Shown: in pieces, positions 40,574 through 48,864 of the stretch
Layout of the letters: each line of letters starts with the position of its first letter
How positions within the stretch are numbered: the first letter of the stretch is position 1
Origin: Salinibacter ruber DSM 13855
Lineage (GTDB): Bacteria > Bacteroidota > Rhodothermia > Rhodothermales > Salinibacteraceae
Direction of reading: 5' to 3'
Assembly: GCF_000013045.1 (NCBI RefSeq)
Contig: NC_007677.1
Location: 3,392,001 to 3,456,000, forward strand
DNA: 64,000 bases
Made by a program: the position numbers and the translations under genes
Notes under the pieces: model-generated
Told to the model about the DNA's origin: nothing
The model's database searches: none
What the model saw: only the letters and a program-made list of their open reading frames with translations

Positions 40574-41098
40574 ATGGCTACGACCACCGCTGAAGAGACC
40601 GCTGCCGAGCAGGTACACGAGAAGGCCGAGCAGGCCCTCGGCTTCGTGCCCAACCTCATCACGGAAATTACGGATGAGAACCCTGCCGTCGCGGACGCCT
40701 ACCTCACATCGCAGGCGCTCGTGGAGGAGGGCGGCGTGCTCTCCGCGGCCGAGCAGCAGGCCGTTATTCTCGCCGTCTCCAGCTACAACGACTGCCACTA
40801 CTGCACGAAGGCTCACGCCGTCGCCGGACAACAGGCCGGGCTCGACGCCGAGACCGTCGAGACGATTAACGAAGGCGGTCTTCCGTCCGACGATCGCCTG
40901 AAAAGCCTCGTGCGGGCCACGCGCCGCATTTTCGGCAAGCGCGGCTGGCTCTCCGACGTCGACGAGGCGGAGTTTGCGGACCTCGGCCTGGAGCGGCCGG
41001 AACTCTACGAGATTGTTGCGCTCGCCGGCATCAAGACGATCAGCAACTACGTAAACCACATTGCCGATACGGAAGTCGACGAGCCATTCCAGACGTAG
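40574..41098 (+). CDS. AhpD-like carboxymuconolactone decarboxylase-family peroxidase
   Basis: 174 residues with the CxxCxxxH motif CHYCTKAH in LAVSSYNDCHYCTKAHAVAG, the AhpD-like redox centre. The C-terminal YEIVALAGIKTISNYVNHIADTEVD completes the helical fold. It likely reduces peroxides, or takes part in a thiol redox relay. Regulated by the adjacent TetR gene by inference. This is the second such protein in the window (see 35.2 kb); the two share only the motif and general fold. Confidence 0.88.
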   Translation: MATTTAEETAAEQVHEKAEQALGFVPNLITEITDENPAVADAYLTSQALVEEGGVLSAAEQQAVILAVSSYNDCHYCTKAHAVAGQQAGLDAETVETINEGGLPSDDRLKSLVRATRRIFGKRGWLSDVDEAEFADLGLERPELYEIVALAGIKTISNYVNHIADTEVDEPFQT

Positions 41099-41110
41099 GG
41101 TCTGGCCCTT

Positions 41111-41138
41111 CATGTCGGAAACTGCATGTCGGAAACTG
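41111..41138. repeat. 14-bp tandem duplication
   Basis: CATGTCGGAAACTG is repeated exactly and without spacer at 41111-41124 and 41125-41138, directly after the AhpD-like stop and before the hairpins of the msrA-like leader. Confidence 0.7.
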
Positions 41139-41158
41139 CTTGACGCCCCCACCAAGAC

Positions 41159-41178
41159 GGCGGCGATGAATCGCCGCC
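41159..41178 (+). promoter_or_regulatory. Hairpin overlapping the terminator arm
   Basis: GGCGGCGAT (41159-41167) pairs with ATCGCCGCC (41170-41178). Its right arm shares four bases with the left arm of the terminator that follows, so the two stems exclude each other. Confidence 0.5.
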
Positions 41179-41226
41179 GACCGAGTGCGCCGGCCTCCCC
41201 CCTCGGGGGACGGTCGGCGTTTTTTG
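41175..41226 (+). terminator. Intrinsic terminator or attenuator before the MsrA-like genes
   Basis: CGCCGACCG (41175-41183) pairs perfectly with CGGTCGGCG (41211-41219), followed by six T at 41220-41225. It may simply end the AhpD-like transcript. With the overlapping upstream hairpin it could also attenuate transcription into the first MsrA-like gene, whose start is about 100 bp further on. Confidence 0.85.
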
Positions 41227-41324
41227 TTGGGGCGACGCCCCGTTCCTCCGGGCCGGAGCCCACCCGACCGGACTGCGCAATCAACGTCCCCGTCCGCACG
41301 TTCGACGAGCACCCCGCCGCCCCG

Positions 41325-42035
41325 ATGGCGCCCCCGACCGACGCAGCGATGCAGCCGCCCCCAATGGACCAGACCGCTCCGACCGACCTCGAGGCCGCCG
41401 TCGTGGCCCTCGGGTGTTTCTGGAACGTGGAGGCAGCCTTTGGGGCGCTGGACGGCGTGGTCCGCACCACAGTCGGCTATGCCGGCGGACAGGCTCCCGA
41501 TCCCGCGTACGCCACGCTTGGGGACCACGCCGAGGCGGTACGGGTCGAGTACGCCCCGGCCCGGCTCCGCTACACCGCCCTCCTGGATCGCTTCTGGTCC
41601 CTGTTCGATCCGACCCTGACGCCCGCCAAGCGCCGGTACCAGCCCCTGCTCGTGCCCCAGAACGCAGAGCAGGCGGAACAGGCGCGGGCCGCGTGGGCCG
41701 ACGCCGTCGCGCAGGACGAGCGGGCCGAGCGTGTTGAGATCGTTGGCGACGGCAACTTTTGCGCCGCCGCGCTCCGACACCAGAAGCACCTGCTCCGGCG
41801 CCACGACGACGTGACGGCCGCCCTCCAGGCCCGGCTCCCGGACGCACGAGCGCTGGCCCGGTCCCCCGCGGCCACGCTCGCCACCGGCTACCTCGGCGGC
41901 CACCGCCATCCCTCCCGCCTCGCCGACGACCAAGACCGACTCGGACTTCCCGCCGACGCCCTCTCGACGCTCCGTGCGGCGGCCCGACGGCACGGAAGCT
42001 GGAACGCCTTCGTACAGGCGGGACGATCCACGTAG
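41325..42035 (+). CDS. MsrA-like protein, non-canonical (first of tandem pair)
   Basis: 236 residues from the ATG at 41325; two further in-frame Mets at 41349 and 41364 are possible. It aligns by eye with peptide methionine sulfoxide reductase A: GCFWNVEAAFGALDGVVRTTVGYAGG, GDHAEAVRVEYAP and RHQKHLLRRH. The catalytic Cys-Phe-Trp and the Glu of HAEAV are kept. The Gly after FW is Asn, and the usual D-x-G-x-QYRS segment is missing (AKRRYQPLLVP). No second, resolving Cys is seen near the C-terminus. Canonical MsrA reduces S-methionine sulfoxide. Activity here is uncertain. Followed 106 bp later by a paralog. Confidence 0.75.
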   Translation: MAPPTDAAMQPPPMDQTAPTDLEAAVVALGCFWNVEAAFGALDGVVRTTVGYAGGQAPDPAYATLGDHAEAVRVEYAPARLRYTALLDRFWSLFDPTLTPAKRRYQPLLVPQNAEQAEQARAAWADAVAQDERAERVEIVGDGNFCAAALRHQKHLLRRHDDVTAALQARLPDARALARSPAATLATGYLGGHRHPSRLADDQDRLGLPADALSTLRAAARRHGSWNAFVQAGRST

Positions 42036-42141
42036 CGTCGAGGCTTCTTTTTGTTTTTTGTCCCCTCCGTGGACCCGCCGAACGCTCACCGGGGCCACCC
42101 GGGACTTTTCGTGTCCACCCTTCCATGCCTCCTTCCTCCCT

Positions 42142-42834
42142 ATGCCCTCTTCCTCGACGCCCCCCGCCGACGCCTCGATGGACATGCCGCCCATGGACCG
42201 CCGTGCCCCGGCCGACCTGTCCCACGCCGCCTTCGGGCTGTGGTGCTTCTGGGGCCCGGACGCCCTCTTCGGCGCCCAGGAGGGAGTGGTGCGCACCACG
42301 GTGGGATACGCCGGCGGCGGGACGCCCGCCCCCACCTACGAGGACATTGGCGACCACATCGAGACCGTCCGCGTGGCGTACGACCCGGATCAGATTTCGT
42401 ACGCCGACCTGCTGGCCCTCTTCTGGACCGCCCACGACCCCACGCGGGCGCCGCTCAAGCGGCAGTACCAGTCAGCCCTCTTCCCGGCCACGCCCGAACA
42501 GGCCGAACAGGCCCGTGCGTCGAGATCCGATGTCGCTGCCGCCCACGACGGGGCGCTCAGTACCGAAATCATTGCGGACGCCCCCTTCACCCGCGCCGAG
42601 CCCTACCACCAGAAGCACAAGCTCCGCCGCCACTCCGCGGTCGCCGACCCGCTTCGGGCCGTGTACCCGGCGGATCGGGCCTTTGCCGATTCGCCCGCCG
42701 CGGCCCTCGCAAACGGATACGTCGGCGGCCACCGCTCCCCGACCCGGCTCACGGACGACGCGGCCCGCCTCGGCCTGCCCACGACGGCGACGGAGGCCCT
42801 CCGCACGATCGCGGCGGATCGCCATCGGGCGTGA
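42142..42834 (+). CDS. MsrA-like protein, non-canonical (second of tandem pair)
   Basis: 230 residues from the ATG at 42142. It parallels the upstream gene: LWCFWGPDALFGAQEGVVRTTVGYAGG, GDHIETVRVAYDP, FWTAHDPTRAPLKRQYQSALFP, EPYHQKHKLRRH. The Cys-Phe-Trp-Gly motif is preceded by Trp instead of Gly, the Glu is kept, and again the D-x-G-x-QYRS Asp is missing. C-terminal parts of both proteins share YxGGHR(H/S)P. The two look like an old duplication that diverged, and probably are co-transcribed. Salt- or chlorine-stress repair of methionine is a reasonable but unproved role. Confidence 0.78.
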   Translation: MPSSSTPPADASMDMPPMDRRAPADLSHAAFGLWCFWGPDALFGAQEGVVRTTVGYAGGGTPAPTYEDIGDHIETVRVAYDPDQISYADLLALFWTAHDPTRAPLKRQYQSALFPATPEQAEQARASRSDVAAAHDGALSTEIIADAPFTRAEPYHQKHKLRRHSAVADPLRAVYPADRAFADSPAAALANGYVGGHRSPTRLTDDAARLGLPTTATEALRTIAADRHRA

Positions 42835-45462: not shown

Positions 45463-47091
45463 ATGAGTGAACTAGCGATTTACTGGGTCTTCGCGGGGGC
45501 GTTCTTGGCAAGCATGGTCGCCATCGGCGCCTACCAGTTTATTGGCCTCCGGACGGTGGACGACCGGGGGGAACGGGCCTTCGATTTCTGGATCGGCGAA
45601 GGGACGGTGCCGGGCTGGTGGACGGCGGCCTCCCTGGCGGCCGGCTGGCTTTTGCTCGGCTGGATGACGTGGCAGATGTACCTCTGGTACGCCTACGGCC
45701 TCGGGGCCATCTGGATCTTCACGATTCCCTGGCTCCTGTGCACCGTCGGGCTCCTGTTCGTGCCCAAGCTGTTCCGGCGGTTTCCGGGCGTCTCGATCCC
45801 CGAGATCCTCCGCTTCCGCTTCAACCGCATGACGCAGACGCTCCTGGGGCCCGTGCAGAGCTTTGCGTACCTCACGTGGCTGGCCGCCGAAATCTACGTG
45901 CTGAGCGCCGTGCTGTCAAAGCCGCTGGAGGTCGGCATCGTGACGATGGCCATTATCGTGAGCATCACGTTCGGCATCTACGTGACCATGGGCGGCTTCC
46001 GCTCCGTCCTGCGCACGGACCTGATCCAGTTCGTCTGCGCGGCGATCATGCTCGTGGCCCTCTCGGTGTTCGGCATCATGGAGGCCGCAGCCCTCTCGGG
46101 CGGCTTCGGACAGATCGTCGCTCAGATCAACGAGACGCCGCCCGTCTACGCCGATCACTTCTGGGACTGGGACTCGCCGGGCTACTCCTACATGTTTGCA
46201 TCGCTCCTTATCTACACGCCCGGCTTCATCACCCTGCAGGGCGCATGGCAGCGCGTGATGGCGACCTCCACCGAGACGGAGGCCCAGAAGGGCATGTGGT
46301 GGAACGTCACGTTCAACGTCATCATCGTGGTCCTCATGCCCACCCTCATCGCCGTGGCGGCGCTGGTCGTCTTTCCGCCCGTCGGCGGCGAGATTCCGAG
46401 CGAGGTCGGCAGCTTCGGCTACTTCATCTTCTCGTCGATGATCACGGAGCTGTTCAGCAACCCGATCGTCGCCGGGGCGCTCATCGTGGCGCTCATGGGG
46501 ATGGCGCTCTCGTCGGTCGACACGTACGTGAACGTCTGTGCCATGAACCTGACGAAGGACGTGCTGGAGCCGCTCGTATTCGAGCGATACGACGTGAGCG
46601 GACAGGCTCGACTGAACACCGGCCGCGCCGTGACGGCCGGCTTCATCGGCATCTCGCTCCTGTGGGCGTTCGAGTTTCCGGGTCTGTTCGACATGTACTT
46701 CCTGTCGAGTGCGCTCATCTCGGCGACGACGGCCGTCGCCACGTTTAGCGCGTTTTCCAAGAAGCCGACGACGCTCTCGGCCTACCTGGCCATCATCTTC
46801 GGCACCGTCGGCATCTTCCTGTTCTTCTTCCTCGGCAAGTACGAGATGCTGGGCTGGCTGCCAACGTGGCTCACCAACTCGGGCCTGGCCTACGGCGTGA
46901 TCGGACTCGCCCTTTCCATCATCGGCATCTTCGTGGGCATCGCCTTCGGCACGCCCCCGAGCGACCGGGTGCTCGCCCGCTACGACGGGAGCTACTACTC
47001 GGGGCGCCGCGAGATGTACGAGCTGAATCAGCAGCTGAAGCAGGAGGAGAAGGAGGAACGGGAGGAGGCCGCGGCGGCCCCCTCCGCGTAG
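45463..47091 (+). CDS. Sodium:solute symporter (SSS family)
   Basis: 542 residues with about 13 hydrophobic helices. SSS features are the N-terminal ERAFDFWIGEGTVPGWWTAASLAAGWLL (unwound first helix), VTMGGFRSVLRTDLIQF, which matches the SSS signature (gGl.av..td..q), and VALMGMALSSVDTYVNVCAMNLTKDV with Ser-Ser in the sodium-site helix. The C-terminus is a charged tail, EEKEEREEAAAAPSA. It imports a solute with Na+; the substrate is not clear, and family members carry sugars, proline, carboxylates or choline. Halorhodopsin follows 147 bp downstream on the same strand. Confidence 0.92.
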   Translation: MSELAIYWVFAGAFLASMVAIGAYQFIGLRTVDDRGERAFDFWIGEGTVPGWWTAASLAAGWLLLGWMTWQMYLWYAYGLGAIWIFTIPWLLCTVGLLFVPKLFRRFPGVSIPEILRFRFNRMTQTLLGPVQSFAYLTWLAAEIYVLSAVLSKPLEVGIVTMAIIVSITFGIYVTMGGFRSVLRTDLIQFVCAAIMLVALSVFGIMEAAALSGGFGQIVAQINETPPVYADHFWDWDSPGYSYMFASLLIYTPGFITLQGAWQRVMATSTETEAQKGMWWNVTFNVIIVVLMPTLIAVAALVVFPPVGGEIPSEVGSFGYFIFSSMITELFSNPIVAGALIVALMGMALSSVDTYVNVCAMNLTKDVLEPLVFERYDVSGQARLNTGRAVTAGFIGISLLWAFEFPGLFDMYFLSSALISATTAVATFSAFSKKPTTLSAYLAIIFGTVGIFLFFFLGKYEMLGWLPTWLTNSGLAYGVIGLALSIIGIFVGIAFGTPPSDRVLARYDGSYYSGRREMYELNQQLKQEEKEEREEAAAAPSA

Positions 47092-47238
47092 GCGTTCGGC
47101 GATGCGGGGCTGTTCGGCCCCGAGTGCCCCTGCACCTCGGTAGAACCGTCCCCCACGCCCCCCGTTGGGTTATCGTCAGCGTCTTCTGGCTCGCACGCGT
47201 CTCTTCGCCGGCCCCCTTCCCAACAGATCTCTCCCTGA

Positions 47239-47988
47239 ATGTTTGAAGCAGTTCTGGATAACGCTGCTCTCGCCTCCTCCATCTACGTCAACATTGCGCT
47301 TGCCGGGCTCACCATCATCGTGATCGCGGTGATGTCACGGAGCATCCACGACTCCAGGGCGAAGCTGATCACGATGTCGACCCTGATGATCTCGGTGGTG
47401 TCCATCTCCAGCTACATGGGACTGGCCTCGGGCCTCACCATCGATCCCCTGGTCATGCCCGAGGGCCATCCCCTCGCCGGCCAGGAAGTCCTCTCCCTGT
47501 GGGGACGGTACCTGACCTGGGCCTTCTCGACGCCGTTCATTCTGCTGGCACTAGGCCTGCTGGCCCGCAGCACCACCGATAAGATTTTCTCGGCCATTGT
47601 CCTCGACGTGTTCATGTGCCTGACGGGCCTGGCCGCCGCGCTCACCACGAGCAGCCACGCCATGCGCTGGCTCTGGTACGCCCTCAGTACCGCGTTTTTC
47701 GTCGGGGTTCTGTACTACCTGCTCGTCGAGTGGCCCGCCGAGGCCGACGAGGCAGGGACCGCCGACATCTTCTCCACGCTGCAGTGGATGACCATCGTCT
47801 TGTGGATCGGGTACCCGGTCGTCTGGGCCCTCGGGAATGAGGGCCTCGCCCTCCTCGAAGTGGGCGCGACCTCGTGGGCCTACAGCGGGCTCGACATCTT
47901 CGCCAAGTACGCCTTCACCATCATTCTCGTGCTGTACGTCAGCGACGAGCCGGACGCGGTCGTCTCGACCTCACCGGCGACGGCGTAG
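47239..47988 (+). CDS. hop: Halorhodopsin (light-driven chloride pump)
   Basis: 249 residues with seven hydrophobic helices, matching microbial rhodopsins. The retinal Schiff-base Lys is Lys223 in LDIFAKYAF, with Asp219 at the place of BR Asp212 and Arg90 at that of BR Arg82. In helix C, WGRYLTWAFSTPFILLALGLL, the BR proton acceptor Asp85 is Thr93 and the donor Asp96 is Ala104. The Thr-Ser-Ala set is that of halorhodopsin, so the likely cargo is Cl- moving inward. Retinal-pocket residues Trp94, Trp189, Tyr192, Pro193 and Trp196 are present. This family is best known from haloarchaea, so transfer is likely. Chloride import fits a salt-in cell. Start ATG at 47239. Confidence 0.93.
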   Translation: MFEAVLDNAALASSIYVNIALAGLTIIVIAVMSRSIHDSRAKLITMSTLMISVVSISSYMGLASGLTIDPLVMPEGHPLAGQEVLSLWGRYLTWAFSTPFILLALGLLARSTTDKIFSAIVLDVFMCLTGLAAALTTSSHAMRWLWYALSTAFFVGVLYYLLVEWPAEADEAGTADIFSTLQWMTIVLWIGYPVVWALGNEGLALLEVGATSWAYSGLDIFAKYAFTIILVLYVSDEPDAVVSTSPATA

Positions 47989-48114
47989 TGCCCCTCCGGC
48001 CCCGGCAAGTGGCGCCCTGGGGACGCGCTACTCACCACTGAAATTCCTGTCTCTGGTTTCTCCTTCGGGACAGGCCCGACGCGTTTCCAATCACGACTCG
48101 TACCGACTCCCTCC

Positions 48115-48864
48115 ATGACCGACCTCACGGGAACATCCGCCATCGTCACCGGTGCCTCAAGCGGCATTGGCGAAGCCACCGCGCACCGTCTTGCTCAGGA
48201 CGGCGTGTCCGTGGCGCTCGCCGCCCGTCGCGAGGAGCGCCTCAACGCCCTCCGCGACGACATCGACGCCGAGGGCGGCACCGCCATCGTCTGCCCCACC
48301 GACGTGACCGACCGGGACCAGGTGCAGGCCCTCGCCGACGCCACCCTCGACGCGTTTGGGAGCATCGACATTCTGGTCAACAACGCCGGCATCATGCCGC
48401 TCTCCCTCATGGAAAACCTCCACGAGGGCGAGTGGGAGCAGATGGTGGACGTGAACGTGAAGGGGGTACTCCACGCCGTGGGGGCCGTGCTGCCCGCGAT
48501 GATGGAGCAGGAGCAGGGACACATCGTCAACATTTCTTCCGTGGCCGGGCGCCGCACCTTTCCCGGCAGCGCCGTGTATTCGGGCACCAAGTTCTTCGTC
48601 CGCGCCCTCTCGGAGCGGATGCGCAACGAGCTGGCGCCCTCCCACAACATCCGGGTCACCTCCATTGAGCCCGGCGCCGTGGACACGGAGCTGCCCAACA
48701 CCATCACCGACGAGGACATCCTGGCGGGAATGGGCGACATGCAGGACGAGATGCAGATGATGGAGTCCGCGGACATCGCGGACACGATCCACTACGCCCT
48801 CACGGCCCCCGAGCACGTGGACGTGGAGGAGCTCCTCGTGATGCCGACCGACCAGCAGGGGTAG
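48115..48864 (+). CDS. NADP-type short-chain dehydrogenase/reductase (YdfG-like)
   Basis: 249 residues of classical SDR. Motifs are [15 protein letters not shown] (cofactor), [19 protein letters not shown] with the catalytic Ser, and the Tyr-Lys pair in [14 protein letters not shown]. The end [18 protein letters not shown] is typical of the YdfG/serine dehydrogenase group. The Arg-Arg in AARREERL after the second strand suggests NADP(H). Substrate unknown; 3-hydroxy acids or alcohols are typical. It lies 126 bp after halorhodopsin on the same strand, and no terminator was recognised between them. Confidence 0.9.

Follow-up and report, generated by a model that had tools for sequence, protein, structure and literature searches.

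Why the chromosome of a bacterium, Salinibacter ruber DSM 13855, should carry a gene with the active-site pattern of a haloarchaeal halorhodopsin (HR), and how the product of that gene would handle chloride, are the questions raised by this locus. The gene lies in the window, i.e. the whole stretch of 64,000 nucleotides that was analysed, between a symporter gene and a dehydrogenase gene:

45463..47091, + strand: left neighbour, sodium:solute symporter (SSF) gene (Pfam)
47239..47988, + strand: halorhodopsin gene (SrHR, the Salinibacter ruber HR), 249 aa (open reading frame, Pfam, PDB matches and fold)
48115..48864, + strand: right neighbour, short-chain dehydrogenase (SDR) gene (Pfam)

The best explanation as a whole, to which a probability of about 93% is assigned, is that this is the published halorhodopsin of S. 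ruber, haloarchaeal in type and presumably a light-driven chloride pump. As judged from its sequence, the gene in the window is the known halorhodopsin of S. ruber M31/DSM 13855, with no difference. The identification is firm because residues 93-104 (TWAFSTPFILLA) match the row for the M31 HR in Table 1 of PMC5877348. Moreover, a 2025 resequencing of M31 (PMC12613981) reports four rhodopsins, namely a halorhodopsin, a xanthorhodopsin and two sensory rhodopsins I, and the same number was found in this genome. Both the gene and its origin in haloarchaea were published as early as 2005 (Mongodin et al., cited in PMC5877348 and PMC1885257), so that the finding itself is already known, and the name SrHR is used in PMC4585134, PMC5118547, PMC5974397 and PMC7714340. 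The gene is a classic example of archaeal-bacterial gene transfer in brine and calls for no new claim. In the open-licence PMC literature, neither a functional or transport study of SrHR nor a description of its Gln182/Asp170 departure was found. What is apparently new about SrHR is this pair of residues, set in an E-F segment without Lys or Arg, together with the HR-free loci of sibling genomes.

The gene product and its retinal and chloride site

The open reading frame is intact and encodes a seven-helix rhodopsin of 249 residues, the start codon of which is unambiguous because an in-frame TGA immediately precedes the ATG. The product matches the Pfam family Bac_rhodopsin with an E-value of 1.3e-45 (156 bits, cut-off 24.6). 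In a sequence search of the PDB, the HRs of N. pharaonis (NpHR, E 5.7e-88) and H. salinarum (HsHR, 6.7e-80) came first, and the next rhodopsin followed only at 7e-26. An AlphaFold2 model built on 32 aligned sequences has seven long helices and a pLDDT of 93.8, and the best ten PDB matches in a fold search with this model were halorhodopsins without exception (10/10). No promoter-like site was found for SrHR alone, and the one terminator-like match falls within the gene and is not above shuffled-sequence level. Compositional foreignness was considered and set aside, the GC3 of 0.884 vs 0.916-0.922 in three neighbour genes being judged uninformative.

Residue columns were assigned by alignment with 55 haloarchaeal HRs, which places the following codons:

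47506..47508, + strand: Arg90 (BR Arg82, HsHR Arg108)
47515..47517, + strand: Thr93 (BR Asp85)
47527..47529, + strand: Ser97 (BR Thr89)
47548..47550, + strand: Ala104 (BR Asp96)
47893..47895, + strand: Asp219 (BR Asp212)
47905..47907, + strand: Lys223, retinal Schiff base (column of BR 216)

The preliminary description of this DNA had put Thr93, Ser97 and Ala104 in the columns of BR 85, 89 and 96 and had named Lys223 for retinal, and the alignment agrees on all four residues. SrHR thus combines the TSA motif and the retinal lysine, and it keeps Arg90 and Asp219, which belong to the Schiff base region that binds chloride. TSA occurs in 50/55 of the aligned archaeal HRs and in 160/179 of a wider census; in that census of distinct halorhodopsins, TSV stands in its place in 11/179 and TSS in 7/179. 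SrHR has neither the NTQ motif of the NTQ chloride pumps (ClR) nor the DTE motif of the xanthorhodopsins, nor does it lie in the xanthorhodopsin clade. Its identity to 79 archaeal HRs is 52-65%. The haloarchaeal halorhodopsin type proposed for SrHR from its motif is supported by the best PDB matches, the fold, the TSA motif and the tree described below.

On isomerisation of retinal, the chloride bound by the protonated Schiff base, close to Thr93 and Ser97, would cross from the outer half of the protein to the cytoplasmic one. With Ala104 there is no proton donor; given this and the direction of the chloride movement, light would therefore drive inward chloride transport, as inferred from the HR family. 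BCD-type oxygenases, the genes of which are at other sites of the genome, would supply the retinal. It had been remarked that neither a retinal-forming oxygenase nor a carotenoid gene is nearby, and that retinal must come from elsewhere. This holds in the sense that both BCD genes of this genome (C1:2740707 and C1:953791) are outside the window, as are a weak lycopene-cyclase match and two matches to phytoene/squalene synthase. A doubled weak lycopene-cyclase match, below cut-off (L366 and L367, G000:C1:1868836-1869507), directly adjoins the xanthorhodopsin gene (C1:1867775-1868476).

The cytoplasmic side of the protein

Two further positions concern the exit of chloride to the cytoplasm:

47746..47748, + strand: Asp170 codon, at the place of NpHR Lys203 (alignment)
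47782..47784, + strand: Gln182 codon CAG, at the place of NpHR Lys215 and HsHR Arg200 (ungapped alignment)

The number of the HsHR residue, which we take to be Arg200, is consistent with counting back from Lys242. In NpHR, chloride site III lies between Lys203 and Lys215 and is abolished in the K203A/K215Q double mutant; the same source states that Lys or Arg at NpHR 215 is kept in all other HRs (PMC11421326). Cyanobacterial HRs are described as having Val or Leu at NpHR 215, but Arg at 199 and 212 (PMC12538430).

Lys or Arg at this place, a trait common in HRs but not defining for them, is replaced by Gln182 in SrHR. Among the 79 archaeal HRs compared first, 48 have Lys and 31 Arg at position 182, and none has Gln; the three bacterial homologues L088, L089 and L090 have Lys. 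On this set Gln182 had looked unique to SrHR, which a broader comparison of 179 distinct archaeal HRs (114 Lys, 63 Arg, 2 Gln) showed not to be so. Gln182 is consequently no bar to HR membership; both archaeal Gln182 proteins (L272 and L323) carry Arg at the position equivalent to NpHR 212. What singles SrHR out is the segment of residues 163-186, in which it alone among 183 HRs has no Lys or Arg, at least one being present in 179/179 archaeal and 3/3 other bacterial HRs. In the distantly related TSA and TTD rhodopsins of the class, position 182 is Val and several Lys or Arg are nearby. Gln182 is known from one S. ruber genome, and its codon CAG is one base off a Lys codon; since this single genome was examined, the residue could be strain-specific.

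With Asp170 and Gln182 in place of Lys203 and Lys215 of NpHR, SrHR is predicted to lack the surface site III at the cytoplasmic exit, so that chloride would depart from its site above the Schiff base with no stop at the surface. It is conceivable, if somewhat doubtful, that SrHR is a natural HR without cytoplasmic site III, in which chloride is freed directly during O formation. As the NpHR K215Q mutant continues to release chloride (PMC11421326) and K215L merely has a slower photocycle (PMC12538430), the loss of site III may alter kinetics only. If the absence of the site were true, SrHR would reveal the purpose of site III, which is perhaps dispensable in near-saturated salt.

The same charges bear on a more radical alternative, namely that SrHR is an HR by descent which no longer pumps chloride efficiently, having decayed or shifted to a sensor or to another anion. 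Cytoplasmic positive charge is indeed lost with Gln182 and Asp170, the net charge of -5 over residues 163-186 is the most negative of 83 HRs (tied with two others), and 12/13 genomes of the genus lack an HR. However, SrHR departs at just 2 of the 81 columns conserved at 95% or more in archaeal HRs, which lies inside the range of 0 to 5 departures shown by the archaeal HRs themselves in a leave-one-out count over the same columns. Furthermore, the reading frame is intact and the Schiff-base residues are retained, as are Phe178, Leu181, Thr185 and Trp189, the counterparts of the first two being termed critical in PMC12538430. As for a sensor, no transducer gene directly adjoins SrHR, its neighbours being the SSF and SDR genes. 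Such a decay or shift is regarded as very improbable.

Descent of the gene and history of the locus

Descent was followed in a first tree of 100 rhodopsins and in two careful trees of 67 and 62 rows rooted with haloarchaeal BR-like proteins. SrHR falls in the HR clade, with an SH-aLRT value of 100 in the 100-rhodopsin tree and support of 100/100 in both careful trees. In the former it forms one clade inside the halorhodopsins with L088, L089 and L090, which are Rhodothermia proteins of 75-77% identity; in both careful trees this four-member bacterial clade (support 100/100) sits inside archaeal splits marked with a star, and Halorutilus and the Natronomonas/Halovenus group are close to it. A transfer from one member of the Rhodothermia to another, as read from branch order, was dropped because this order differed between the two careful trees and because holding SrHR together with L089 was not rejected by an AU test (p 0.28).

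Lateral transfer from haloarchaea, already published for SrHR (PMC5877348, PMC1885257) and suggested again by the preliminary description, is supported by these trees: in each of the two careful analyses, the archaeal HRs formed one side in 0/200 bootstrap trees, the bacterial clade being nested in all 200. The reverse course, in which bacteria had the HR clade first and passed it to haloarchaea, gains from the AU tests, since trees with the archaeal HRs forced to one clade were not rejected (p 0.063, 0.463 and 0.054, the value of 0.463 deriving from a quick tree with just four outgroup rows). Against it stand the nesting in the free trees, the haloarchaeal BR that is the closest outgroup in the 100-rhodopsin tree, and the distribution of the gene, present in 208/391 haloarchaeal genomes vs 4/244 in the class (identity of at least 75%). 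This reverse course is given very little credence. Transfer of HR from archaea to bacteria, into Rhodothermia, is favoured as the most likely direction, also because HR is widespread in haloarchaea and rare in the class; the direction is not quite settled, as the AU tests fall short of formally excluding a basal bacterial branch. A haloarchaeal HR would then have entered Rhodothermia laterally.

Within the genus, HR was found in 1/13 genomes, that of S. ruber. SSF and SDR genes are adjacent without an HR, 151-764 bp apart, in five siblings (G192, G193, G196, G202 and G203), which shows that HR is patchy inside one genus; in four others (G199, G200, G194 and G195) the symporter was found and the SDR gene was not, within the stretch read. 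The spacer measures 151 bp in the closest sibling, G196, the symporter of which is 99% identical, vs 1026 bp in S. ruber, and its ends align to 33 bp and about 70 bp of the S. ruber spacer. This delimits the following stretch:

47122..48039, no strand assigned: HR-bearing stretch without counterpart in G196, edges approximate (spacer comparison)

No HR remnants were found in the nine sibling loci, except for one 17-base chance match in G193. The HR of S. ruber would be a single-gene insert, with the SSF symporter on one side and the SDR gene on the other, and both a recent single-gene gain and clean losses would fit this history. A neighbourhood common to the four Rhodothermia HRs was sought and rejected: HR is the sole match to the window in L186 and L187, and L188 has, besides HR, one weak 26% match that is distant from HR in the window. 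Elsewhere in the window, two slightly overlapping peptide methionine sulfoxide reductase (PMSR) frames (41061-42035 and 41974-42834) form an apparent tandem pair.

A position among the xanthorhodopsins, the outcome that the preliminary description had named as contrary to its own proposal, was checked, and the xanthorhodopsin of this genome (L003, DTE) belongs to a different deep group. Since two distant rhodopsins of the same class, L091 and L092, also carry TSA, the motif by itself is no proof of HR, but convergence of an NTQ- or xanthorhodopsin-type bacterial pump on TSA has a negligible chance of being correct: it is refuted by the 100-rhodopsin tree, in which xanthorhodopsins and NDQ rhodopsins are set apart, and the HR clade support of 100/100 and the identity to archaeal HRs given above also speak against it.

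The remaining two rhodopsins of the genome (L002 and L004, DTY) group in the 100-rhodopsin tree with three haloarchaeal DTY/DTF proteins, taken for sensory rhodopsins, and away from SrHR. Genes with HAMP and MCP-signal domains (L189:2128-3705 and L190:647-2764, the latter on the minus strand) adjoin these DTY rhodopsins, as expected for sensory rhodopsins with transducers. In G202, of the same genus, a rhodopsin of 235 aa (L126:1456-2163) has an odd DGN motif at BR 85/89/96 and a very long branch; it adjoins an Rrf2-type regulator gene, and its best PDB match is 6kfq (E 1.5e-24). Halorutilus salinus (G245) has a rhodopsin frame with one internal TGA (L153) and five further rhodopsin matches in a 2.1-Mb genome.

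Comparison with known halorhodopsins

An inward chloride pump has been demonstrated by experiment in the same bacterial family, namely RmHR of Rubricoccus marinus, which has the TSA motif and the pump class in common with SrHR (PMC5877348). L091 and L092, the Rhodothermia TSA rhodopsins taken as being of the RmHR kind, are only 34-37% identical to SrHR and fall outside the HR clade that holds it, in a separate clade. HsHR (PDB 1e12) is 58% identical to SrHR with a TM of 0.93, and NpHR (PDB 3a7k) is 59-60% identical in the fold alignment with a TM of 0.94, TSA being present in all three proteins. The difference lies on the cytoplasmic side, where HsHR has Arg200 and SrHR Gln182, and where Lys203 and Lys215 of NpHR are Asp170 and Gln182. 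SrHR may be regarded as a naturally occurring analogue of the NpHR K203A/K215Q mutant, through which the proposed cytoplasmic site becomes testable in a wild-type pump.
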